This document shows positions 34,714-64,000 of a DNA stretch of 64,000 nt, one piece after another. How positions within the stretch are numbered: position 1 is the first letter of the stretch; each line of letters begins with the position of its first letter. The notes under the pieces are model-generated. The model searched no databases and was not told where the DNA came from. It saw only the letters and a program-made list of their open reading frames with translations. The stretch is taken from the NCBI GenBank assembly GCA_004010835.2, contig CP030868.2:1612001-1676000 (forward strand). The letters are read 5' to 3'. A program made the position numbers and the translations under genes. Source of the stretch: Oenococcus sp. UCMA 16435. Its GTDB lineage: Bacteria > Bacillota > Bacilli > Lactobacillales > Lactobacillaceae.

Positions 34714-35060
34714 TGGAGTAGATGGGAGTCGAACCCATGTCCAAATTATCCAATCACATAAATATCTACGTTCATAGTTAACAAGCAATTTCGCTCAAGA
34801 TTAGGTTGCTAACTTCCAAATCAAGGGCTAGTTCGATTATTGTTTCACTGCTTTTATTCCGAACATAAACGCCAGCAGCTAATCCACTAATTAGGCCGAG
34901 AATGTTGCCGTGGACTCAACAAAGGGCTACGCGACTGCGATTAAGCAGCTAATGCGTAAGCTGGTTCATTATTTTTTGCAGTTATATCTGCAGTCTCTAA
35001 CCCGACAAACGGGAACGCAATCCATGCTTGTAATAACCTGTCGAATTCCGGAACTACCCC
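34714..35060 (-). ncRNA. ssrA: tmRNA (SsrA)
   Basis: Rescues stalled ribosomes and tags their products for proteolysis. The two ends form a tRNA-like acceptor stem: GGGGTAG at the 5' end (35060-35054) pairs with CTACTCC at the 3' end, discriminator A at 34714; CCA is not encoded. The T arm GGGTTCGACTCCC is clear. The tag frame starts with GCA at 34979 and ends with TAA at 34941, giving AKNNEPAYALAA. Length 347 nt is normal. On the minus strand a TATAAT box lies about 15 bases upstream of the mature 5' end. Confidence 0.97.
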
Positions 35061-40019: not shown

Positions 40020-40141
40020 ATTTTTATGCATAGTTTGACTGAGGGGAAACCGTTAAAATTAATAATTTTCTTCACGATACCGCTTTTGTTGGGGAATCTT
40101 TTTCAGCAGCTTTACACTTTTACCGATACGGTGATTGTTGG
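40020..40141 (+). repeat. 122-bp direct repeat, left copy
   Basis: Identical base for base to 49487-49608. It covers the ribosome-binding region and first 39 codons of the MATE gene. The two copies bracket about 9.35 kb. Confidence 0.95.
40026..40141 (+). pseudogene. 5' fragment of a MATE efflux gene
   Basis: Encodes MHSLTEGKPLKLIIFFTIP and on to TVIVG, identical to the first 39 residues of the intact MATE protein at 49493. The similarity stops at 40141, where the sequence continues into the inverted 5' part of an ECF transporter gene. The open frame runs to 40238 by chance. Confidence 0.9.
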
Positions 40142-40303
40142 CCCAAGCAGCACGGCAGCGATAATGACTGTAATCGGTATAATTGTCAAACTCAAAGGTC
40201 CGATTGGAATATACCCCAACAAGGGTACGAAATTTTGAATGATAACAATGGCGATAAAAAGCGCCATGATAGCTAAATGAAATGCTTTTGTTTGATGTAT
40301 CAT
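40142..40303 (-). pseudogene. 5' fragment of an ECF-transporter S-component gene
   Basis: On the minus strand, ATG at 40303 has AGAAGGG upstream and the product reads two hydrophobic segments with QNFVPLLGYIPIGPLSLTI, the typical start of an ECF S component (vitamin-uptake subunit). Similarity ends near residue 54 at the repeat junction 40141; genuine members have about 170-190 residues. A pantothenate-type S component is possible but not certain. Confidence 0.7.
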
Positions 40304-40557
40304 GATTAACCCTTCTCTACCAGCGGCTTAGATGTTACTAATTATAATATCGAATAGTGATGACCGAATTAAATACATATGTACAGTTTTAATTTTATTA
40401 AAACAATTTTTATACTCAGACGTATTAGACAGTAGTTTCTGTCTAATCTATAATCATATTGTTTTACCGATTATTCGCAAGGCGATTACAACAAAACAGA
40501 TACTTACTTTTAGTGTTTAATGGTAGTGTATCTGTTTCGTAACTAAAACTATTGATA
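40304..40557. other. Intergenic region with two hairpins
   Basis: ATTAGACAG/CTGTCTAAT is a perfect 9-bp hairpin at 40424-40447. AACAGATAC/GTATCTGTT at about 40495-40540, with a T-rich flank on the minus strand, is probably the terminator of the crotonase gene. Nothing coding is visible. Confidence 0.55.
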
Positions 40558-41358
40558 TTAATTATTTGCGAAATCAGGGTGTCGTTTTTCTAGAAAAGCC
40601 TTCATACCTTCTTTTTGATCGCTAGTAGCAAAGGTCTGAGCCCACATTTGTGTCTCAAAATCAATTGCAACGTCTAAAGGCAAATCCGCACCATCATCAA
40701 TAACGTTTTTGGCCATCGAAACAGCAATTAATCCATTTTTCATAATTGTATGAGTGATTTTATCCACTTCTGTGTCCAACTGTTCTGGAGAAACAATCTC
40801 TTCTAAAATACCGACTCTGTGTGCTTCTTCAGCATCAATCATTTGCCCAGTCGCAATCATCTCTTTTGCTTTGCCACGACCAACCAAACGAGTGAGCCGT
40901 TGTGTACCGCCAAACCCAGGTACAATTCCAAGGGTAACTTCTGGTTGACCAAACTTAGCTTTGGTTGACCCAATTCGAATATCACATGATGCGGATAGCT
41001 CAAGACCGCCACCCAATGCATAACCGTTTACTTTCGCAATTGTAATTTGTGATAATTTTTCAATTTTACCAAATGATTCATGTGCCAATCTAGATAAGTT
41101 CGCTGCTTCCAGTGAATTCATTGACTGCATTTGCGAAATATCCGCGCCAGCAACGAATGCTTTTTCACCAGCTCCAGTAATTACCAAAACTTTAATATCT
41201 TTCTCATTTGCCTTCACATAATCCAAGCATTGACCAATTTCAGCCAAAGTATCAGAGTTAAGTGCGTTAAGTGATTTTGGACGGTTAATTGTTAAATATC
41301 CAACCCCATCTTTTTCTTCAAACAATAAATTTTCATAAATTCCAGTATTCTTTGTCAT
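40558..41358 (-). CDS. Enoyl-CoA hydratase (crotonase family)
   Basis: Adds water to (or removes it from) 2-enoyl/3-hydroxyacyl-CoA, S-specific in typical members. The 266-residue protein has the acyl-CoA loop GEKAFVAGADISQM, the oxyanion/first catalytic glutamate segment ALGGGLELSASCDIR and the second glutamate in FGQPEVTLGIVPGFGGTQRL, so both catalytic glutamates are present and hydratase activity is expected. It is divergent from the aquaporin-MaoC-FabV-Pct genes; a cre-like site lies in its promoter. Crotonases are unusual in lactic acid bacteria, supporting acquisition with the island. Confidence 0.92.
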   Translation of the reverse strand: MTKNTGIYENLLFEEKDGVGYLTINRPKSLNALNSDTLAEIGQCLDYVKANEKDIKVLVITGAGEKAFVAGADISQMQSMNSLEAANLSRLAHESFGKIEKLSQITIAKVNGYALGGGLELSASCDIRIGSTKAKFGQPEVTLGIVPGFGGTQRLTRLVGRGKAKEMIATGQMIDAEEAHRVGILEEIVSPEQLDTEVDKITHTIMKNGLIAVSMAKNVIDDGADLPLDVAIDFETQMWAQTFATSDQKEGMKAFLEKRHPDFANN

Positions 41359-41392
41359 AACTAAGTAAACATCCTTTCAGTAATGTTTAATT

Positions 41393-41408
41393 AGCAAGCG
41401 CTTTCAAA
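41393..41408. promoter_or_regulatory. cre-like site upstream of the crotonase gene
   Basis: AGCAAGCGCTTTCAAA matches the reverse cre consensus at 12 of 14 defined positions. A related sequence, AGCAAGTGCTTTCG, is at 43177-43190 before fabV, so the two units may share CcpA or another regulator. Confidence 0.5.
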
Positions 41409-41661
41409 GAAAAACATAACAGGATTAGCCTAAAAAAACAAGTTAATGGTTAGTTTTTTGAATTCAAATTCATCTAATTTAATTGAAATATCAAAAGAGA
41501 TATTGTGAATAATTGATTTTTATAAGCAAAAGGTGCCGGATCTATGGACTTTTGTTAAGTATAACTTATAGTTATGGCTTGTATGAAAAACAATTAGCAT
41601 TTACTCGTAATAATTGTCTCGTTATGATAGTTTTGTCACAAAGTGACGTGGAGGTTTAATT

Positions 41662-42399
41662 ATGTATTCAGTATTAGTTACTAAGCTGGCAGCTGAATTT
41701 TTTGGTACAGCAATTTTAATCATATTAGGGAACGGCGCTGTAGCCAATATGGCTTTAAATGGTACGACCGGTCGCAATGATGGGGGTTGGCTATTTGTAG
41801 CATTGGGTTATGGATTTGGTGTCATGATTCCAGCAATGATGTTTGGTTCCATTTCGGGAAATCATTTAAATCCTGCGGTTACAATAGCTTTCGCTTCGAT
41901 TGGAAGAATTTCCTGGTCTTTGGTGATCCCGTACATCACAGTTCAATTGCTCGGTGCCATGACTGGCCAATTGGTTGTGGTTTCCACTTATTGGCCTTTT
42001 TACAAAAAAACAAGTGACGAAAGCAGTGTTTTTATGACTTTTTCAACTGGTGATGGTGCAGGCAGCTGGTTTAATGGTTTTGTGAACGAATTTTTTGGTA
42101 CATTGATATTGGTTTTTGGTGCATTGGGTTTGTATAAAGATATGTTCTTTAAAACGAATACAGATATTGCAAATATTGGGATAGGTTTGCTAATCATGGT
42201 TTTGGTTATTTCCATTGGTGGTGCAACGGGACCGGCGATCAATCCCGCTCGTGATCTTGGACCAAGGATAATTTTGGCACTATTCAAAGTCCCTAATAAG
42301 GGCAAGTCAGTGCACTGGGACTATGCATGGGTTCCTATCCTGGCACCAATTTTCGGTGGTCTTGTCGGTGCAAATATTTTTCATTTATTTTTTGACTAG
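41662..42399 (+). CDS. Aquaglyceroporin (MIP family, GlpF-like)
   Basis: A 245-residue channel with six helices and both NPA boxes: NHLNPAVTIAF and GPAINPARDLGPR. The aspartate after the second box (NPARD) is the mark of the glycerol-permeable subgroup, so small neutral solutes such as glycerol or undissociated hydroxy acids could pass. It has a GGAGG-type ribosome-binding site. Its place among acyl-CoA genes suggests it supplies the substrate or lets the product out (inference). Confidence 0.92.
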   Translation: MYSVLVTKLAAEFFGTAILIILGNGAVANMALNGTTGRNDGGWLFVALGYGFGVMIPAMMFGSISGNHLNPAVTIAFASIGRISWSLVIPYITVQLLGAMTGQLVVVSTYWPFYKKTSDESSVFMTFSTGDGAGSWFNGFVNEFFGTLILVFGALGLYKDMFFKTNTDIANIGIGLLIMVLVISIGGATGPAINPARDLGPRIILALFKVPNKGKSVHWDYAWVPILAPIFGGLVGANIFHLFFD

Positions 42400-42707
42400 T
42401 CTTTGAGTCTTTATATTTAGTATATAACTATAGGTTATGATAAGAATGAAAATTTTGTATTGGAATATTCTCGATTCAAGGTCTAAATTATGTGTTGTAG
42501 ATAATTATTTATTTCACTAGGTTGATTATAAATAATTTGTGATTTATTTATCAACTCTCTTTATTAAATAATTATCTGCTTTGTCTGGATGATGATATTT
42601 GTTGGTTAACGAAATGTTAGTGGATATTGATTTGTGAAAATAATAACAAATATCATATTGTTTTGTTAAGTTTGTTCCGAACTATGAATTGTCAAGGAGG
42701 AATTGCA

Positions 42708-43151
42708 ATGGATACCACATACAAGATTATTACAGAAGATATGATCCAAATGGGCATGAGTGGCCAATTAGTATCTAAAATTACTGAATCAGATATAGCA
42801 GAATTCGCAAGGCTTACCGGTGACAGGAATCCTGTTCATATGGATGAGGATTTTGCTAAAAGAACACAATTTGGTGGTCGAATCGCACATGGCAGTTATT
42901 CTGCATGTCTGATATCAGCGTGTATTGGTATGAAGATGCCAGGCCCTGGTGCTATATATTTGGGTCAAAATCTGCGTTTTAATCTTCCGGTTCATTTTGG
43001 CGATGTATTAGTGACCAAAGTACAAGTTATTAATATTGAGCAAAAAAAGAATTTTAAGGTAGTTGACTTGCAAACTGATGTGATAAATCAAAATGGTGAA
43101 GTCGTTACAAGCGGAGTGGCCACGGTGATGCCAGCAAAAAAAGAAATTTAG
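42708..43151 (+). CDS. MaoC-like (R)-specific enoyl-CoA hydratase
   Basis: Interconverts (R)-3-hydroxyacyl-CoA and 2-enoyl-CoA. From ATG 42708 (AAGGAGG upstream) it has 147 residues; the earlier in-frame start at 42627 has no signal. The hydratase-2 motif is complete: catalytic Asp and His in TGDRNPVHMDEDFA, then FGGRIAHGSYSACLIS. The hot-dog fold and length match PhaJ-like enzymes. With the S-specific crotonase nearby, both stereoisomers of a hydroxyacyl-CoA could be dehydrated. Confidence 0.92.
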   Translation: MDTTYKIITEDMIQMGMSGQLVSKITESDIAEFARLTGDRNPVHMDEDFAKRTQFGGRIAHGSYSACLISACIGMKMPGPGAIYLGQNLRFNLPVHFGDVLVTKVQVINIEQKKNFKVVDLQTDVINQNGEVVTSGVATVMPAKKEI

Positions 43152-43176
43152 AGTTTGATTTTTAAAACGTGATGTT

Positions 43177-43190
43177 AGCAAGTGCTTTCG
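43177..43190. promoter_or_regulatory. Second cre-like motif, upstream of fabV
   Basis: AGCAAGTGCTTTCG repeats the motif found at 41393 with one transition in the central CG. It is weaker as a cre. Confidence 0.4.
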
Positions 43191-43254
43191 TAAATATGAA
43201 TATCTCCTTTCAGAACAGATATTCACAAGTTATTTTGATTCAGAAGGGTAAATT

Positions 43255-44463
43255 ATGAGCACAGAAGTAAAAATATCGGAAAAATTAAAAGGGAATGCAG
43301 CACGTTCTGTTAATCCTTACGGATGCAAACAAGAAATTGCTGACCAGATTAATTACGTCAAAAACAAGGGCTATTATGATGGTGCAAAGAAAGCTTTGAT
43401 CATTGGAGGGTCATCAAGTTATGGACTCGCAAGCAGAATTACTGCAGCATTTGGTCAAGGAGCAGACACCATTTCAGTTGCATTTGAACGCCCGCCAAAG
43501 GATGAAACGATGTTGGGGACAGCTGGTTGGTGGAATAATATTTATTTTCGTCAACAAGCTGAGAAAGCTGGATTGATTGCTAAAAATTTTAATGGGGACG
43601 CGTTTACTGATGAAATGAAGCAACAAGTAACTGATTATATCAAGCAGAACTTTGGCGGAAAAATTGATCTACTAGTATATTCTGTTGCAGCTCCCAAAAG
43701 AACCAATCCTAAGAACAAAGATCAAATATGGCGTTCCGTGATTAAGTCGATTGGTGAACCAGTAACTGGAGAAAATATTGATTTGGAAAAGAATGAATTA
43801 TTTACTCAGACTGTTGAACCAGCTACCCCTGAAGAAGTAGAAGCCACCCGCCGTGTCATGGGCGGAGATGACTGGGAATTATGGATTGATTTCTTAAAAC
43901 AAGCGGATGTTTTAGCGGATGGATTCAAAACAATTTTGTATTCATATATTGGTCCCAAAAGCACGTATGCTTTCTATCACGAGGGGACACTAGGCGCGGC
44001 AAAGGACGCAGCTGAAGAATCCTCACATAAAATTCAGAAAAAAATCGATGATATAAACGGTGAAGCATTGATAAGTGTTTCGCGAGCTGTCACAACAAAA
44101 GCTTCGGTAGTTATTCCTATTTTTCCATTATATTGTATTGCTTTGTATAAAGTTGAAGAAAAGACAGGAACACACGAAACACCGATTATGCATAAAGATC
44201 GTTTATTCCGCGATATGGTCTACGGCAATAAACGTGAAACTGATGATCACGGACGTTTGCGTCCAGATTCGTGGGAGCAAGATCCAAAAGTTCAAAAACA
44301 AGTATCTGAATTAATGGCAAAAATAACTCCGGAAAACTTTAACTCTGATTTGACTGGTTATGCTCAATTCAGAAGAGAATTTATGCAGCTCAATGGATTT
44401 GAAGTCAAAGGTGCCAATAATGATACGGTCAATTTTGATGAAATTACAAAGTTAGAACCATAA
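43255..44463 (+). CDS. fabV: trans-2-enoyl-CoA reductase (FabV/TER family)
   Basis: Reduces 2-enoyl-CoA (crotonyl-CoA in typical TER enzymes) or enoyl-ACP with NADH. The 402-residue length is typical. The N-terminal nucleotide motif GGSSSYGLASRI is followed by the acidic position in VAFERP associated with NADH use; the catalytic tyrosine and lysine are in YHEGTLGAAK, the Y-x8-K spacing that separates FabV from other enoyl reductases; the C-terminal KITPENFNSDLTGYAQFRRE is also characteristic. Its stop lies 15 bases before the CoA-transferase gene, so they form an operon. It is the NADH-consuming step of the island pathway. Confidence 0.93.
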   Translation: MSTEVKISEKLKGNAARSVNPYGCKQEIADQINYVKNKGYYDGAKKALIIGGSSSYGLASRITAAFGQGADTISVAFERPPKDETMLGTAGWWNNIYFRQQAEKAGLIAKNFNGDAFTDEMKQQVTDYIKQNFGGKIDLLVYSVAAPKRTNPKNKDQIWRSVIKSIGEPVTGENIDLEKNELFTQTVEPATPEEVEATRRVMGGDDWELWIDFLKQADVLADGFKTILYSYIGPKSTYAFYHEGTLGAAKDAAEESSHKIQKKIDDINGEALISVSRAVTTKASVVIPIFPLYCIALYKVEEKTGTHETPIMHKDRLFRDMVYGNKRETDDHGRLRPDSWEQDPKVQKQVSELMAKITPENFNSDLTGYAQFRREFMQLNGFEVKGANNDTVNFDEITKLEP

Positions 44464-44478
44464 GAAGAGAAATGAGAT

Positions 44479-46080
44479 GTGGCTATGACGATAAAATTTA
44501 TTAAAAGTTCGGAAGTACCAAAACTTATTTCTGATAACTCAACTATTGCTTTGGAAGGATTTTTGGGGTCGGATGTGGCCGAAGAAATTCTCGAAGCAAT
44601 TAAATCTAATTTTGAGAAAACTTCCCATCCAAATCAGCTAACTATTTGGCACGCATCTGGTATCGGAGATGGTGACGATAAGGGTATGAACAATTTCGCG
44701 GTTGCTGGTTTGACTAAACGAATTGTTGGTGGCCACTGGGCACTCGCCCCGAAGTTGGAACCATTAGTAGAACACAATCAAATTGAAGCCTATAATTTCC
44801 CACAAGGCGTTTTATCACAAATTTTTAGAGATTCCGCAGCTCATAAGCCAGTCCTTATTACAAAAGTTGGTCTAGGAACTTTTATTGATCCAGATCTACA
44901 AGGGGGCAAACTTAACGCTGTGGCCACCGAAGATTTGGTTTCTAAAATTGAGATTGACGGTGAAGATTATTTAGCTTATAAAGCGCCGCGTCCGAACATT
45001 GCCATATTGAGAGGAACATTTTCTGACGAAGACGGTAACATCACCTTCGATGACGAACCACTTACATTGGAATCGACGGCGATTGCTATGGCTGCTCATA
45101 ATAATGGAGGCAAGGTATTTGTCCAAGTAAAAAGAGTGGTAAAAAATGGGTCAATGAGGCCTAAAGATATTAGAATTCCTGGCTTGCTGGTGGACTATGT
45201 AGTAGAAACTGCGGATGAGGCTATGACCATGCAAAGTAATTCTACACAATATAACCCAGATTTTATTCACGCAAATATCCTTAAAAAGGCTGGAACTATC
45301 AATGTATCGTTGGATGAAAAGAAGGTCATCGCTAGAAGGGCTGCAATGTGTTTGAATCCTGATACAGATCATATTGTTAATTATGGGATTGGAAAGTATC
45401 CAGAGACGGTTTCTTTAGTGCTTAAAGAAGAGGGCGCTGCTGATGATATTACGACTACAGTTGAACCTGGAACTTTTGGTGGTGTTCCTCTAGGAGGAGG
45501 AGACTTTGGCTGTGCGATTGCACCAGTATCAACTATTGACCAGCCTTATATGTTCGATTTTTATGATGGTGGTGGCATTGATATTGCTTTTCTTGGTTTA
45601 GCTGAGTTGGATAAACATGGGAACGTAAATGTTTCAAAATTTGGTCCAAAAATTGCTGGAACAGGTGGCTTTGTAGATATCTCACAAAATACTAAGTCAA
45701 TCATCTATACTGGCACATTTACTGCCGGAGGTTTGAAAGAAGAAATCAGAGACGGCCAATTACACATTATTCAAGAAGGCAAATACGATAAAATGGTCGA
45801 AAGTGTCGAACAGGTTACATTTAGTGGACCGGTAGCTTACGCGAATAAGCAATCAGTTTATTATGTCACTGAAAGGGCTATATTTAAGCTCGTAGATAAT
45901 GGTATTGAGTTAATTGAAATCGCACCAGGAGTTAATTTGCAAAAAGACATTCTCAACCATATGGTCTTCACGCCGATAATTTCAGATAATTTAGCATATA
46001 TGGATAAGAAAATCTTCGAGGATCCGCTAATGGGCAATATCAAGAACGAAATAGGATCGAAATTATTGATTAATAATTAG
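44479..46080 (+). CDS. Propionate-CoA-transferase-like family I CoA-transferase
   Basis: Moves CoA between carboxylic acids (for example acetyl-CoA plus a hydroxy acid). The 533-residue protein is a fused alpha-beta family I enzyme and resembles propionate CoA-transferase from start to end: HWALAPKLEPLVEHNQIEAY, TKVGLGTFIDPDLQGGK, the catalytic-glutamate region TVEPGTFGGVPLGGGDFG, FDYYDGGG-like FDFYDGGGIDIAFLGLAE and NVSKFGPKIAGTGGFVDI. Known members accept acetate, propionate, butyrate, lactate and 3-hydroxypropionate. Start is uncertain: GTG 44479 has the better spacing from AAGAAGAG, ATG 44485 is the alternative. It would activate the acid and recover CoA from the reduced product. Confidence 0.92.
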   Translation: MAMTIKFIKSSEVPKLISDNSTIALEGFLGSDVAEEILEAIKSNFEKTSHPNQLTIWHASGIGDGDDKGMNNFAVAGLTKRIVGGHWALAPKLEPLVEHNQIEAYNFPQGVLSQIFRDSAAHKPVLITKVGLGTFIDPDLQGGKLNAVATEDLVSKIEIDGEDYLAYKAPRPNIAILRGTFSDEDGNITFDDEPLTLESTAIAMAAHNNGGKVFVQVKRVVKNGSMRPKDIRIPGLLVDYVVETADEAMTMQSNSTQYNPDFIHANILKKAGTINVSLDEKKVIARRAAMCLNPDTDHIVNYGIGKYPETVSLVLKEEGAADDITTTVEPGTFGGVPLGGGDFGCAIAPVSTIDQPYMFDFYDGGGIDIAFLGLAELDKHGNVNVSKFGPKIAGTGGFVDISQNTKSIIYTGTFTAGGLKEEIRDGQLHIIQEGKYDKMVESVEQVTFSGPVAYANKQSVYYVTERAIFKLVDNGIELIEIAPGVNLQKDILNHMVFTPIISDNLAYMDKKIFEDPLMGNIKNEIGSKLLINN

Positions 46081-46087
46081 CGAGTGA

Positions 46088-46996
46088 TTAAAGAGCAGCT
46101 TGATCTTTAAAATAATCGAAAAAATATTTTCTGGTGAAGCGAGTGATATTAGTTTCTCTCTGGCCTCCCAGAGTACATAAACTTATATTCCAAGGAAAGA
46201 TTGGATTAATATCCCGATGATAGATTTTTGTTCCAGAAAAATTTTTTCCGATTGGTGTTGCAATGATCGCAGCGACGTCATCCATTTCGTTGCACATGTT
46301 AAGCAGCAGATCCCAAGATGAGGACTGAAAGAAAAAATTAGGTTGTAAATGAAATTTTTTGAGTAATTGTCTCCATTGATAAGTAACCATAAAACTATTA
46401 TCTAGGGTAATAACGTTCGTTCGACTATTGATATCTTTTATTGGGATTGATCCTTTGAAACGATTAAAAGGGTGGTTCTTGTTAAACCATACAGATACGG
46501 TATTACGATAAATTATATGTTCTCTGATTGCTGGGAATGTCGGTGGTGATACCAACACAGCAAAATCAATATCTTGAAGTATCAGCATTTTTTGGAGTTC
46601 GTAAGCCCCTTTTTCCACGATTTTTAATTCAATTTTAGGATTTTCTTTGATGAATTGAGGAATTAATTGATTAAACAGAGTTGAAATTATCACTGGTGCA
46701 ATACCTATTTTAACGATTCCTTTTTTTGTAGATGTACTATCCTGAAAATCCTTCATCATTGTATTGTATTCGACTTCGACTCTGCGAGCATCGTGTAAAA
46801 GCTCTTCTCCAATTAAAGTTAGTCCTGTTATGCGGCCGTTTGCTCTGATGAATATCTTGGTTCCTTGAAAGTTCTCCAGTTCATTTATAAATTTGCTCAA
46901 GGCCGGTTGAGATACATTCAGGTCTATGGCGCTTTTCGTCAAATTAAAGCCATGATCAACGATTCCGATTAAATATTCAATTTGTCTAATTTCCAT
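46088..46996 (-). CDS. LysR-family transcriptional regulator
   Basis: A 302-residue regulator. I place the start at 46996 (AAGAGG 7 bases upstream; product MEIRQIEYL); the TTG at 47014 is an alternative. The N-terminal helix-turn-helix (LTKSAIDLNVSQPALSKFINELE) is standard and is followed by a periplasmic-binding-fold effector domain. It converges on the CoA-transferase gene and is divergent from the alpha/beta hydrolase gene, and is the likely regulator of the island genes. An acid or CoA-ester ligand is plausible but unproven. Confidence 0.9.
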   Translation of the reverse strand: MEIRQIEYLIGIVDHGFNLTKSAIDLNVSQPALSKFINELENFQGTKIFIRANGRITGLTLIGEELLHDARRVEVEYNTMMKDFQDSTSTKKGIVKIGIAPVIISTLFNQLIPQFIKENPKIELKIVEKGAYELQKMLILQDIDFAVLVSPPTFPAIREHIIYRNTVSVWFNKNHPFNRFKGSIPIKDINSRTNVITLDNSFMVTYQWRQLLKKFHLQPNFFFQSSSWDLLLNMCNEMDDVAAIIATPIGKNFSGTKIYHRDINPIFPWNISLCTLGGQRETNITRFTRKYFFDYFKDQAAL

Positions 46997-47027
46997 CTGG
47001 GACCTCTTTGCCAAAAGTATTGTTGGA

Positions 47028-47041
47028 CACTAATAATAGTG
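47028..47041. promoter_or_regulatory. Inverted repeat in the lysR-hydrolase divergent promoter
   Basis: CACTAATAATAGTG, arms CACTA/TAGTG, 32 bases before the lysR start. A symmetric site of this size in a divergent LysR promoter is a normal operator. Confidence 0.55.
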
Positions 47042-47135
47042 ACACATCAAAAGCAAAAAAGTACTTGACAAGCAGTTATTAATTTTCATAAGTTGTTCCG
47101 AAATCTTTAAATTAAAGGCGAAGAAAGGTTTTGTC

Positions 47136-47918
47136 ATGATTTTTATAACAATCGACAATATTCATTTAAATTATTCAGATCAAGGGCACGGTTTTCCGGT
47201 TATTATCATGACGGGATATGCTGGCTACAAAGAAATTTGGAGAAGCCAAGTTGATTATTTAATTAATCATGGCTACAGAGTTATCAATTTGGACCGAAGA
47301 AACAGTGGGAATTCGGAAACTACTACAAAAGGGCTTCGCATGAGTCGCCAGGGTCAAGACTTGGCTGAATTAATAGCATACTTGGTTTTTACTAGGGTTA
47401 ATTTAATGGGAAATTCTATGGGAGCTGCGGTCATTTGGACATATTTGTCTCTTTATGGAGAGGCAAAAGTTAACAAAATTATTTCTGTTGATCAATCACC
47501 GAAAATGGTAACCGATGATACTTGGCCATATGGACTGTTAGACGTGACTTGGGATAATTTTCCTAAAGAATCCGAAAAAATGTATAGTGTAAAAACAACT
47601 TATAACCGAATTAGCAATGAGACATATGCTGCAGTTAAAGCGGCGCAAGGCAATGCAGAATTTAATCATGGTTTAAATAGGCCATTACTTTATGACCACG
47701 TCTTTCAAGATTGGAGGGATATTTTAACTATTTTAAGAAAACCAATTTTGTTTGTGGCTGGTCGACAAAGCCCTTTTTGGTCTAGCAACTACGCTTTGGC
47801 ATCTGCGACTTTATGTGACAAAGGATATGCCAAAATTGTTAATAATGCTGGTCATGTGGTTATGGCCGAACAAGAAAAAGAATTTAATCAGCTGATGCAA
47901 GAATTTTTATTAGATTGA
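47136..47918 (+). CDS. Alpha/beta-hydrolase family protein
   Basis: A 260-residue hydrolase with the oxyanion region MTGYAGYKEIW, nucleophile elbow GNSMGAA and terminal histidine in NNAGHVVMAEQ. The family includes esterases and haloperoxidase-like enzymes. It is divergent from lysR across the probable operator. In an acyl-CoA island it could release a hydroxy acid from an ester or lactone; that is only context. Confidence 0.85.
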   Translation: MIFITIDNIHLNYSDQGHGFPVIIMTGYAGYKEIWRSQVDYLINHGYRVINLDRRNSGNSETTTKGLRMSRQGQDLAELIAYLVFTRVNLMGNSMGAAVIWTYLSLYGEAKVNKIISVDQSPKMVTDDTWPYGLLDVTWDNFPKESEKMYSVKTTYNRISNETYAAVKAAQGNAEFNHGLNRPLLYDHVFQDWRDILTILRKPILFVAGRQSPFWSSNYALASATLCDKGYAKIVNNAGHVVMAEQEKEFNQLMQEFLLD

Positions 47919-47976
47919 AATAAAGAAATTTGATTTTATTCACATTTATTAAAGCGTTTAAGAAGAAGGACTAATC

Positions 47977-48456
47977 ATGACAAAAGCGGTTTTTCCAGGA
48001 TCATTCGATCCATTAACATTTGGACATTTAGATGTGATTCAACGTTCGTCATTACTTTTTGATCAGGTCGTAGTTGCGGTGGGCGTAAATACGACTAAAA
48101 CGGCTATGTTTACGACTGAAGAAAAAGTGGCTTTAATTCGCGAAAATGTTAAGGATCTTCAAAACGTTAACGTTATGGTCATGCGAGGATTAACTTGCAA
48201 TTTTGTTACGGCGGTAACTGGTGATGTTATTATTCGTGGAATTAGAAATGTTCAAGATTATGAGTACGAACGTGACATTGCCGATATTAATAATTGTCTC
48301 GGCAAGGTTGATACTGTCTTAATACCTTCGAAAACTGCTTACCAAGATATTTCTTCTTCTAATCTGAAAGAAGTTGCTAAATTTGGTGCGGATGTCAGTT
48401 CTTTTGTACCTCGAAATGTATCAAAGTTGTTGAAAATGAAATTAGAATCGAACTAA
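47977..48456 (+). CDS. coaD: Pantetheine-phosphate adenylyltransferase
   Basis: Penultimate step of CoA synthesis: 4'-phosphopantetheine plus ATP to dephospho-CoA. The 159-residue length is normal. Nucleotidyltransferase motif TFGHLD (T/HxGH) is in FPGSFDPLTFGHLDV, with VIIRGIRNVQDYEYE and ISSSNLKEVAKFG in the expected places. The region NNCLGKVDTVLIPSKTAYQD is more divergent than usual. Whether this is the only chromosomal copy or an island-borne second copy cannot be told from the window; it directly follows the hydrolase gene. Confidence 0.93.
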   Translation: MTKAVFPGSFDPLTFGHLDVIQRSSLLFDQVVVAVGVNTTKTAMFTTEEKVALIRENVKDLQNVNVMVMRGLTCNFVTAVTGDVIIRGIRNVQDYEYERDIADINNCLGKVDTVLIPSKTAYQDISSSNLKEVAKFGADVSSFVPRNVSKLLKMKLESN

Positions 48457-49361: not shown

Positions 49362-49486
49362 CTGGCTTGGTCGCTGATGGCTTTGAAACAGGAAAAAATC
49401 TTGTCGCTGACGATGCGAAACAGAATCATTGATAGCCGTTCACAGAATCATGGTTACTGGATAACATATAAAATTAAATCATAAGG

Positions 49487-49608
49487 ATTTTTATGCATAG
49501 TTTGACTGAGGGGAAACCGTTAAAATTAATAATTTTCTTCACGATACCGCTTTTGTTGGGGAATCTTTTTCAGCAGCTTTACACTTTTACCGATACGGTG
49601 ATTGTTGG
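49487..49608 (+). repeat. 122-bp direct repeat, right copy
   Basis: Identical to 40020-40141 and here part of the intact MATE gene. Perfect identity over 122 bases at 9,467 bases distance indicates a recent duplication or gene conversion. Confidence 0.95.
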
Positions 49609-63531: not shown

Positions 63532-64000
63532 ATGCAAAAAGTATTTATTTTAAGTGCGGTTCGAACACCGATCGGAAAATTTGGCGGCGTTTTAAAAAAT
63601 AAAACGGCTGTTGAACTCGGAGCAACGGTTATTAAATCACTGCTTAAGCGTTCAGAAATATCTGCCGAGGAAATAGATGAAATTTATATGGGTAATGTTA
63701 TTCAAGCAGGCGTCGGGCAGAATCCTGCTCGTCAAGCAGCTCGTCTAGCCGGTATTCCCTTTTCAATTCCCAGCACGACAATTAATGATGTTTGTGGGTC
63801 GGGACTGCATTCGATTAATTTGGCGGCTAAATTAATCGCTGGCGGTTTTGATGACATAATTGTAGCCGGAGGAATGGAATCGATGTCCAATGCTCCATTT
63901 TTGCTTAAAAATCATCGATTTGGACATAAATTAGGAAACGAAAAGATTGATGATACATTGTTACGGGATGCTTTGATTGACCCGATCGGAAACTTCCATA
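63532..64000 (+). CDS. Acetyl-CoA acetyltransferase (thiolase), 3' end outside window
   Basis: Condenses two acetyl-CoA to acetoacetyl-CoA, first step of the mevalonate pathway in lactic acid bacteria. The first 156 codons are present, beginning MQKVFILSAVRTPIGKFGG, with GVGQNPARQAA and the nucleophilic cysteine in NDVCGSGLHSI, then VAGGMESMSNAPF. The gene runs off the right edge. It lies about 15 kb from the acyl-CoA island and has no adjoining 3-hydroxyacyl-CoA dehydrogenase, so a link with that pathway is not indicated. Confidence 0.93.
   Translation, partial: MQKVFILSAVRTPIGKFGGVLKNKTAVELGATVIKSLLKRSEISAEEIDEIYMGNVIQAGVGQNPARQAARLAGIPFSIPSTTINDVCGSGLHSINLAAKLIAGGFDDIIVAGGMESMSNAPFLLKNHRFGHKLGNEKIDDTLLRDALIDPIGNFH

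Follow-up and report, generated by a model that had tools for sequence, protein, structure and literature searches.

An acyl-CoA gene island of Oenococcus sp. UCMA 16435 as a probable electron-sink module, most likely for reduction of 3-hydroxybutyrate to butyrate

The stretch of DNA analysed here (the window; 64,000 nucleotides of contig CP030868.2, positions 1,612,001 to 1,676,000) belongs to the 2.03-Mb, two-contig genome of Oenococcus sp. UCMA 16435, and contains at window positions 40558-48456 an island of eight genes that encode a crotonase, an aquaglyceroporin, a MaoC-type hydratase, a FabV reductase, a CoA-transferase, a LysR-type regulator, an alpha/beta hydrolase and the CoA-biosynthetic enzyme CoaD. 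Open reading frames and family profiles place all eight genes in the families, and at the positions, given in an earlier note on this DNA:

40558-41358, minus strand: short-chain enoyl-CoA hydratase (crotonase, Crt-like; Pfam ECH_1, 222 bits)
41662-42399, plus strand: aquaglyceroporin (MIP family, from family profiles), putative channel for acid or glycerol
42708-43151, plus strand: MaoC-type hydratase, putatively PhaJ-like and (R)-specific; readable from TTG at 42627
43255-44463, plus strand: NADH-dependent enoyl reductase of the FabV/Ter family (NCBIfam FabV models at 429 and 508 bits, both above cut-off)
44479-46080, plus strand: class I CoA-transferase of the YdiF/FadX type, with fused alpha and beta chains
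46088-47014, minus strand: LysR-type regulator, CidR/AlsR-like (family profiles start at residue 7, Met at 46996)
47136-47918, plus strand: alpha/beta hydrolase with a predicted aryl-esterase-like fold
47977-48456, plus strand: second pantetheine-phosphate adenylyltransferase (CoaD), Oenococcus-type paralogue (TIGR01510, above cut-off)

Crotonase and aquaporin genes diverge, and downstream of the latter, on its own strand, come maoC, fabV and the CoA-transferase gene. The LysR gene, on the opposite strand, runs convergently to the CoA-transferase gene on one side and divergently from the hydrolase gene on the other.

Alignment to homologues indicates that the catalytic residues of all four acyl-CoA enzymes are intact. 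The best NCBIfam model for the crotonase is short-chain-enoyl-CoA hydratase (329 bits, under its cut-off of 394), and its closest solved structure is likewise a short-chain-enoyl-CoA hydratase (5z7r), with a 3-hydroxypropionyl-CoA dehydratase (5zai) as runner-up; E120 and E140, which we take to be the known catalytic glutamate pair, are invariant in 14/14 aligned sequences. The MaoC open reading frame spans 42627-43151, the start Met at 42708 agrees with homologues, and the closest solved structure is an (R)-specific enoyl-CoA hydratase (5cpg, 108 bits); a GD-NP-H motif is invariant in 16/16 sequences, and D-x4-H aligns to PhaJ structures. FabV is closest to two solved structures, the 'putative reductase' CA_C0462 (4eue, 346 bits) and FabV 8rcz (344 bits), and Y241-x8-K250, presumably the catalytic pair of FabV/Ter reductases, is invariant in 18/18 aligned sequences (the fragment at locus L045 excluded). 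The CoA-transferase scores 450 bits against the NCBIfam FadX equivalog, under the cut-off of 750, and is therefore a FadX relative rather than FadX itself; it matches the YdiF structure 2ahu at 466 bits, and its E329 is in register with E333 of E. coli YdiF, which we assume to be the catalytic glutamate. The earlier name 'Pct-like' was thus right as to CoA-transferase, but the searches give FadX/YdiF as the type, in a comparison that did not include Pct itself.

A FabV scan of genome contigs yielded 46 loci. In 13 of these (the full loci: L002-L007, L009-L013, L020 and L022), genes for crotonase, aquaporin, FabV, CoA-transferase, LysR and hydrolase are grouped, in the five genera Furfurilactobacillus, Companilactobacillus, Lentilactobacillus, Lactiplantibacillus and Paucilactobacillus. 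The position of the LysR gene is the same across all 13, MaoC is present in 12 of them, and CoaD in none. Gene order in Paucilactobacillus is that of the window, plus one kinase gene between the LysR and hydrolase genes; in the other full loci with maoC, this gene is located beyond the crotonase gene. FabV adjoins the CoA-transferase in 18 of the 46 loci, and five loci have this pair with an incomplete set: L008, L045 (Loigolactobacillus), L015 (Vagococcus), L016 (Brevibacillus) and L017 (Neobacillus), the L008 and L045 loci ending at contig ends. The remaining 28 loci are without such a CoA-transferase; 24 of them encode a FabV that is 39-48% identical (most come from metagenome-assembled genomes, and some lie on short contigs), and in four the FabV is nearer (L014, L018, L019 and L046).

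The same linkage was found in a survey of 397 Lactobacillaceae genomes sampled evenly over the family (raw counts, kinship ignored), in which FabV matched in 43 genomes and the CoA-transferase in 30. At an identity of at least 70%, FabV is present in 21 genomes and the CoA-transferase in 20, with both adjacent on one contig in 19 genomes that span seven genus groups, the Oenococcus window included; among genomes with lower-identity FabV only, the CoA-transferase occurs in 2 of 22 (G208 and G365). Thus, the island type of FabV comes together with the CoA-transferase, which rarely accompanies the other type. The earlier note had held that scattering of the genes in relatives would count against a common pathway; the opposite was found, namely co-occurrence in several genera, with 19 of 21 island-type FabV genes adjacent to the CoA-transferase gene. 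A search of plasmids with FabV returned 102 records, none at 60% identity or above.

Two copies of a palindrome, ATAAC-N5-GTTAT, mark the intergenic regions of the island:

41561-41575: palindrome ATAACTTATAGTTAT, putative LysR-type operator between the crotonase and aquaporin genes
42424-42438: palindrome ATAACTATAGGTTAT, putative operator of the maoC-fabV-CoA-transferase unit

These are the only copies in the window, where 0.15 are expected, and at least two copies arose in 3 of 100 shuffles of the window. The palindrome lies 5' of the aquaporin gene in 14/14 homologous regions (exact in 9, one mismatch in the other 5), and 5' of the FabV unit it is exact in 15/15. In 500 shuffles of the homologous regions, aquaporin regions with at most one mismatch numbered 0.43 on average (maximum 3), and FabV-unit regions had a mean of 0.01 exact copies and a maximum of 4 regions with at most one mismatch. 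In Neobacillus, an exact copy precedes an operon of reductase, thiolase, MaoC, FabV and CoA-transferase genes, and the Brevibacillus copy has one mismatch; no palindrome with at most one mismatch was found in the Vagococcus or Loigolactobacillus stretches. Co-occurrence in several genera, together with this common operator-like palindrome, indicates that the island genes are one real unit. The island is probably controlled by its own LysR protein, which is predicted to bind the palindrome as a shared operator. Sites for CcpA (catabolite-responsive elements, cre, scanned with what we took as the consensus) also precede the aquaporin gene in 12/14 regions, with at most one mismatch and on either strand; exact cre-type sites are present in 6/14 of these crotonase-aquaporin regions (L003, L004, L007, L009, L010 and L011) and in none from the window.

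The reductase of this unit could in principle be a spare enoyl-acyl carrier protein (enoyl-ACP) reductase for membrane lipids, with incidental neighbours, since NCBIfam names it FabV above both cut-offs and other lactobacilli have FabV proteins at 53-61% identity without this CoA-transferase. However, a genome search located a separate type II fatty-acid synthesis (FAS-II) cluster at 771-778 kb with FabZ, FabF, FabG, FabD, a FabK-like protein (447.8 bits, cut-off 453.1) and FabH, so that FabV is not the sole candidate enoyl-ACP reductase, and FabV of the island type is tightly linked to the CoA-transferase and has the palindrome in common with it. A role in fatty-acid synthesis is accordingly disfavoured, and we regard it as hardly tenable.

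In some relatives, a different reductase occupies the place of FabV. On a plasmid of Lactobacillus intestinalis (L097), a related crotonase and a related CoA-transferase (62% each) flank a FabK-like protein that is 73-76% identical to Companilactobacillus ones and is annotated as nitronate monooxygenase. This cluster resembles the island also in an exact palindrome before the CoA-transferase gene and in a probable aquaporin gene, split into two open pieces as judged by eye, next to the crotonase gene; it differs in that the FabK-like gene stands at the place of fabV, the stretch having neither MaoC nor FabV in its annotation, and is followed by an annotated type I pantothenate kinase gene whose product is 30-36% identical to the island kinases of other lactobacilli. 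CRISPR-like repeats (by eye, from open frames) and annotated type I-E cas genes lie directly behind the cluster (L097:12660-13600). A plasmid gene row in Fusobacteria encodes a CoA-transferase, crotonase, GntP permease, MaoC, acyl-CoA dehydrogenase and EtfBA, with no thiolase annotated in the stretch; Cetobacterium has a related row with thiolase and ketoacyl reductase. Relative to the island, the acyl-CoA dehydrogenase/Etf of the Fusobacteria plasmid stands for FabV. Another member of this group, Ilyobacter polytropus, ferments 3-hydroxybutyrate and crotonate, with butyrate among the products of 3-hydroxybutyrate according to a published account (PMC3035301). Ilyobacter also forms acetate, whereas no close 3-hydroxybutyrate dehydrogenase was seen in the genome that carries the island. 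Because three kinds of enoyl reductase occur in one type of setting, these comparisons suggest that enoyl-CoA reduction is the point of the module, and they support a CoA-transferase/hydratase/enoyl-reductase logic that persists where the reductase is replaced in other lineages.

The gene neighbourhood in Vagococcus fluvialis (L015) bears on the substrate. MaoC, FabV, CoA-transferase and LysR genes are present there in the same order as in the island, beside a 3-hydroxybutyrate dehydrogenase gene (406 bits, cut-off 258), a thiolase gene and genes for a 3-oxoacid CoA-transferase (both subunits), each above a family cut-off, and a second LysR gene. A pantothenate-kinase-like gene is present as in relatives of the island, though not in the window; the Vagococcus stretch has no island-type crotonase, MIP or hydrolase gene. 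The dehydrogenase, 3-oxoacid CoA-transferase and thiolase constitute the oxidative half of a 3-hydroxybutyrate fermentation, beside a putative reductive half. By analogy, this arrangement favours conversion of 3-hydroxybutyrate to butyrate as the function of the island. Our main reading, to which we assign a probability of about 0.6, is that the island is a horizontally acquired electron-sink module, most likely for this conversion. Of the closed cycle proposed in the earlier note, the single unit and the logic of CoA-transferase, hydratase and reductase are borne out, and 3-hydroxybutyrate to butyrate, which had been said to fit, is now favoured; the substrate, product and benefit are inferred.

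In the proposed mechanism, a 3-hydroxy acid, most likely 3-hydroxybutyrate, would enter in protonated form through the aquaglyceroporin and would receive CoA, by way of the CoA-transferase, from the product acyl-CoA or, for priming, from acetyl-CoA. Dehydration to trans-2-enoyl-CoA would be carried out by MaoC for the (R)-form and by the crotonase for the (S)-form, and FabV would use NADH to reduce the enoyl-CoA. The resulting saturated acyl-CoA would hand its CoA to the next hydroxy acid as butyrate exits. The net reaction would be 3-hydroxybutyrate + NADH + H+ -> butyrate + NAD+ + H2O, with zero net consumption of CoA. The clostridial butyrate pathway, which consists of thiolase, Hbd, Crt, Bcd/Etf or Ter, and CoA-transferase, shares the crotonase, enoyl-CoA reductase and CoA-transferase steps with the island; the island differs from it in having no thiolase or 3-hydroxybutyryl-CoA dehydrogenase and an additional (R)-type hydratase. 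Heterofermenters make NADH from sugar, and a solitary reductive half therefore fits them: each NADH so reoxidised would spare acetyl-phosphate from ethanol formation, for ATP, and the lactobacilli and Oenococcus would retain this half as an electron sink.

Several observations weigh against this reading. The FabV/Ter sequence cannot separate C4 from longer chains, and the scores to CA_C0462 and to a FabV structure are almost level (346 and 344 bits), favouring neither short enoyl-CoA nor enoyl-ACP as substrate. In stretches around 19 hits to short-chain dehydrogenase/reductase (SDR) proteins, no close 3-hydroxybutyrate dehydrogenase was found, the best SDR being 32% identical to the Vagococcus enzyme, so that only the reductive half would work here. 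No habitat source of 3-hydroxybutyrate was found, no detailed search having been made. MaoC is missing from L011 (Companilactobacillus nantensis) and from the L. intestinalis stretches; among the 397 surveyed genomes, the island type of FabV stands alone in G287 and G052, and the CoA-transferase alone in G229. In a review, Met after the first NPA is suggested as a mark of the lactic-acid facilitator GlpF4 (PMC4150397); the island aquaporin has Val at this place. It also scores 123.5 bits against the LarD equivalog, below the cut-off of 390. Lastly, the operons of Brevibacillus and Neobacillus, in which a thiolase and a FabG/PhaB-type reductase are encoded before MaoC, FabV and CoA-transferase and the palindrome is shared, also fit butyrate from acetyl-CoA.

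These operons, and a thiolase gene that starts at 63532 in the window, favour a route in which a thiolase and a reductase encoded elsewhere in the genome feed the island to form butyrate or butyryl-CoA from acetyl-CoA, as in the Bacillaceae-type operons. The earlier note had reported no thiolase or 3-hydroxyacyl-CoA dehydrogenase and had concluded that the chain cannot start from acetyl-CoA. The island (40558-48456) is indeed without thiolase and 3-hydroxybutyryl-CoA dehydrogenase (the 3HCDH family was not searched for genome-wide), but the genome has the thiolase gene, which makes the conclusion too strong. A weak NMO match at 1679 kb, first considered as an isomerase, is a GMP reductase, so there is no evidence here for placing the thiolase in a mevalonate cluster. 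Against the acetyl-CoA route, members of the thiolase cluster (c15) and the reductase cluster (c27) are present in 0/13 full lactobacillar loci, and, among the SDRs of this genome, the FabG encoded in the FAS-II cluster comes closest to the Brevibacillus reductase (43%). We consider this route improbable.

The same chemistry may instead be directed at non-C4 acids of the 2-enoic or 3-hydroxy type (2-hexenoate, sorbate, longer or branched acids), which would either accept electrons or be detoxified. The substrate ranges of these acyl-CoA enzyme families are broad, neither the operator nor the enzymes fix chain length, and the hydrolase, with its esterase-like fold, could free such acids from esters or lactones. 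On the other side, the top structural matches are a short-chain-enoyl-CoA hydratase for the crotonase and clostridial CA_C0462 for FabV, and Vagococcus couples the core to a 3-hydroxybutyrate dehydrogenase; on this balance, non-C4 substrates are unlikely, though they merit attention. Conversion of 3-hydroxypropionate (from glycerol) to propionate would agree with the aquaglyceroporin, with the second-best structure of the crotonase, and, in Companilactobacillus, with genes that by eye resemble those for glycerol kinase and glycerol-3-phosphate dehydrogenase and lie about 1.7 kb past the hydrolase gene. The genome gave no match to a diol/glycerol dehydratase, although the search controls matched nothing either, and we know of no report that establishes acryloyl-CoA as a FabV substrate; this conversion appears highly improbable.

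Returning to the electron sink, a broader formulation is that the unit is a mobile, one-operator regulon in which a CoA-transferase loop makes external 3-hydroxy or 2-enoic acids terminal electron acceptors, with an interchangeable reductase (FabV, FabK-like, or acyl-CoA dehydrogenase/Etf) and often an added gene of CoA biosynthesis (pantothenate-kinase-like or coaD); we see the case for this formulation as evenly balanced. If true, it would represent an unrecognised butyrate-forming fermentation branch in several genera of Lactobacillaceae, and some lactic acid bacteria of food and drink would form butyrate from 3-hydroxybutyrate and gain ATP, which would be relevant to off-flavours, to the butyrate formation claimed for lactobacilli and to mixed cultures that include polyhydroxybutyrate makers. 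The palindrome, together with fabV beside the CoA-transferase gene, could serve as a marker of the trait, which would be present in about 5% of the surveyed Lactobacillaceae species (19/397). Among the open-licence PubMed Central papers listed, titles and abstract openings describe no such pathway for lactic acid bacteria.

The CoaD of the island is a second copy, 76% identical to the native copy of the genome (C1:1909061, on the 2,026,464-base contig), and its nearest other matches are Oenococcus proteins. The earlier note had counted CoaD with the island, but it is seen only here and in none of the related loci, and was therefore rejected as a general member of the module. Second coaD genes above cut-off were found in two other genomes (group g3) of the 23 searched, never on the contig with FabV and CoA-transferase. 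Of 18 lactobacilli that have the FabV/CoA-transferase pair, 12 carry a pantothenate-kinase-like gene within about 4 kb of it on the same contig; the six without a nearby kinase are genomes of the Companilactobacillus group (g4). These island-side kinase genes are under the curated cut-off, and all 18 lactobacilli own a canonical pantothenate kinase elsewhere. Pantothenate-kinase-like matches in the five larger Oenococcus genomes are short and under cut-off, and the match in this genome has stops inside the matched stretch (open frame of 233). The CoaD here and the kinase in relatives may be parallel additions of a CoA-making enzyme beside a CoA-dependent loop, a parallel that may be chance because the second coaD of the two g3 genomes is off the contig of the pair.

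The hydrolase has S94, D119 and H240 invariant in 12/12 sequences, which would form a catalytic triad. Its structure model has a predicted local distance difference test (pLDDT) score of 79, with aryl esterases at about 20% identity as best structural matches; the structure search gave only general aryl-esterase/haloperoxidase relatives and pointed to no substrate. A promoter scan was uninformative (35 found versus 32.2 expected).

The origin of the island was examined from its flanks. Six other Oenococcus genomes gave no match to FabV, so that among the seven examined (two of them only 65-68% complete) this one alone is positive. In G003, the genome nearest by MATE identity (96%), the empty site consists of an uncharacterised open reading frame, the MATE gene and the genes that follow MATE in the window. 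The flanking features of the island are:

40020-40141, plus strand: left copy of a direct repeat, a duplicate of the MATE gene's 5' end (122 nt, 100% identical)
40136-40351: donor-type left flank (216 bases, 95.8% identical to the O. sicerae-like genome G004, L089 10874-11089)
48631-49480: donor-type right flank, uncharacterised open reading frame (about 0.8 kb, 93-99% identical to G004)
49487-49608, plus strand: right copy of the direct repeat, where the intact MATE gene starts (122 nt, exact)

The left flank holds the start of a gene like that for the S component of an energy-coupling factor (ECF) transporter, on the minus strand from about 40303 to 40139, which is 49% identical over 55 aa to an ECF protein of L014 (tblastn). 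The right flank, compared in 100-base steps, is G004-like to about 49430 and G003-like from about 49430-49530, near the MATE start. No Pfam family was found in the two uncharacterised flanking open reading frames. The simplest reading of these sequences is that a carrier of the island resembling O. sicerae passed it on by recombination between Oenococcus species, the recombination points being set by homology at the right end and six common bases at the left. In other genera, the island proteins find their best matches at 61-81% identity, versus 46-55% for the island CoaD and named proteins of Leuconostoc, Fructobacillus and Weissella; with CoaD as the only yardstick, this would fit an earlier arrival of the non-CoaD genes from lactobacilli.

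Other gene arrangements were noted. In Bombilactobacillus (L014:9977-11868), an island-type FabV gene (72%) without a CoA-transferase gene is directly 5' of an ECF-transporter S-component gene. Two Bacillus loci (L018 and L019) show a further setting for MaoC and FabV, whose genes come after genes for an ABC transporter (by eye), a beta-ketoacyl-ACP synthase III (KAS III)-like protein and an acetyl-CoA hydrolase/transferase-like protein, the last two families having been assigned by a Pfam run on L018. Past the hydrolase gene, five Companilactobacillus loci (L003, L004, L007, L008 and L011) carry two more copies of the palindrome, spaced 128 bases apart and each with no more than one mismatch. 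These copies precede a FabK-like gene about 0.6-0.7 kb from the hydrolase gene (family call tested in L003 only among these loci), after which come glycerol kinase, glycerol-3-phosphate dehydrogenase-like and ApbE-like genes (named by eye). Elsewhere in the window, ARAGORN predicts a tmRNA at 34714-35060 with an unusually long tag of 32 residues, possibly from a misread frame.

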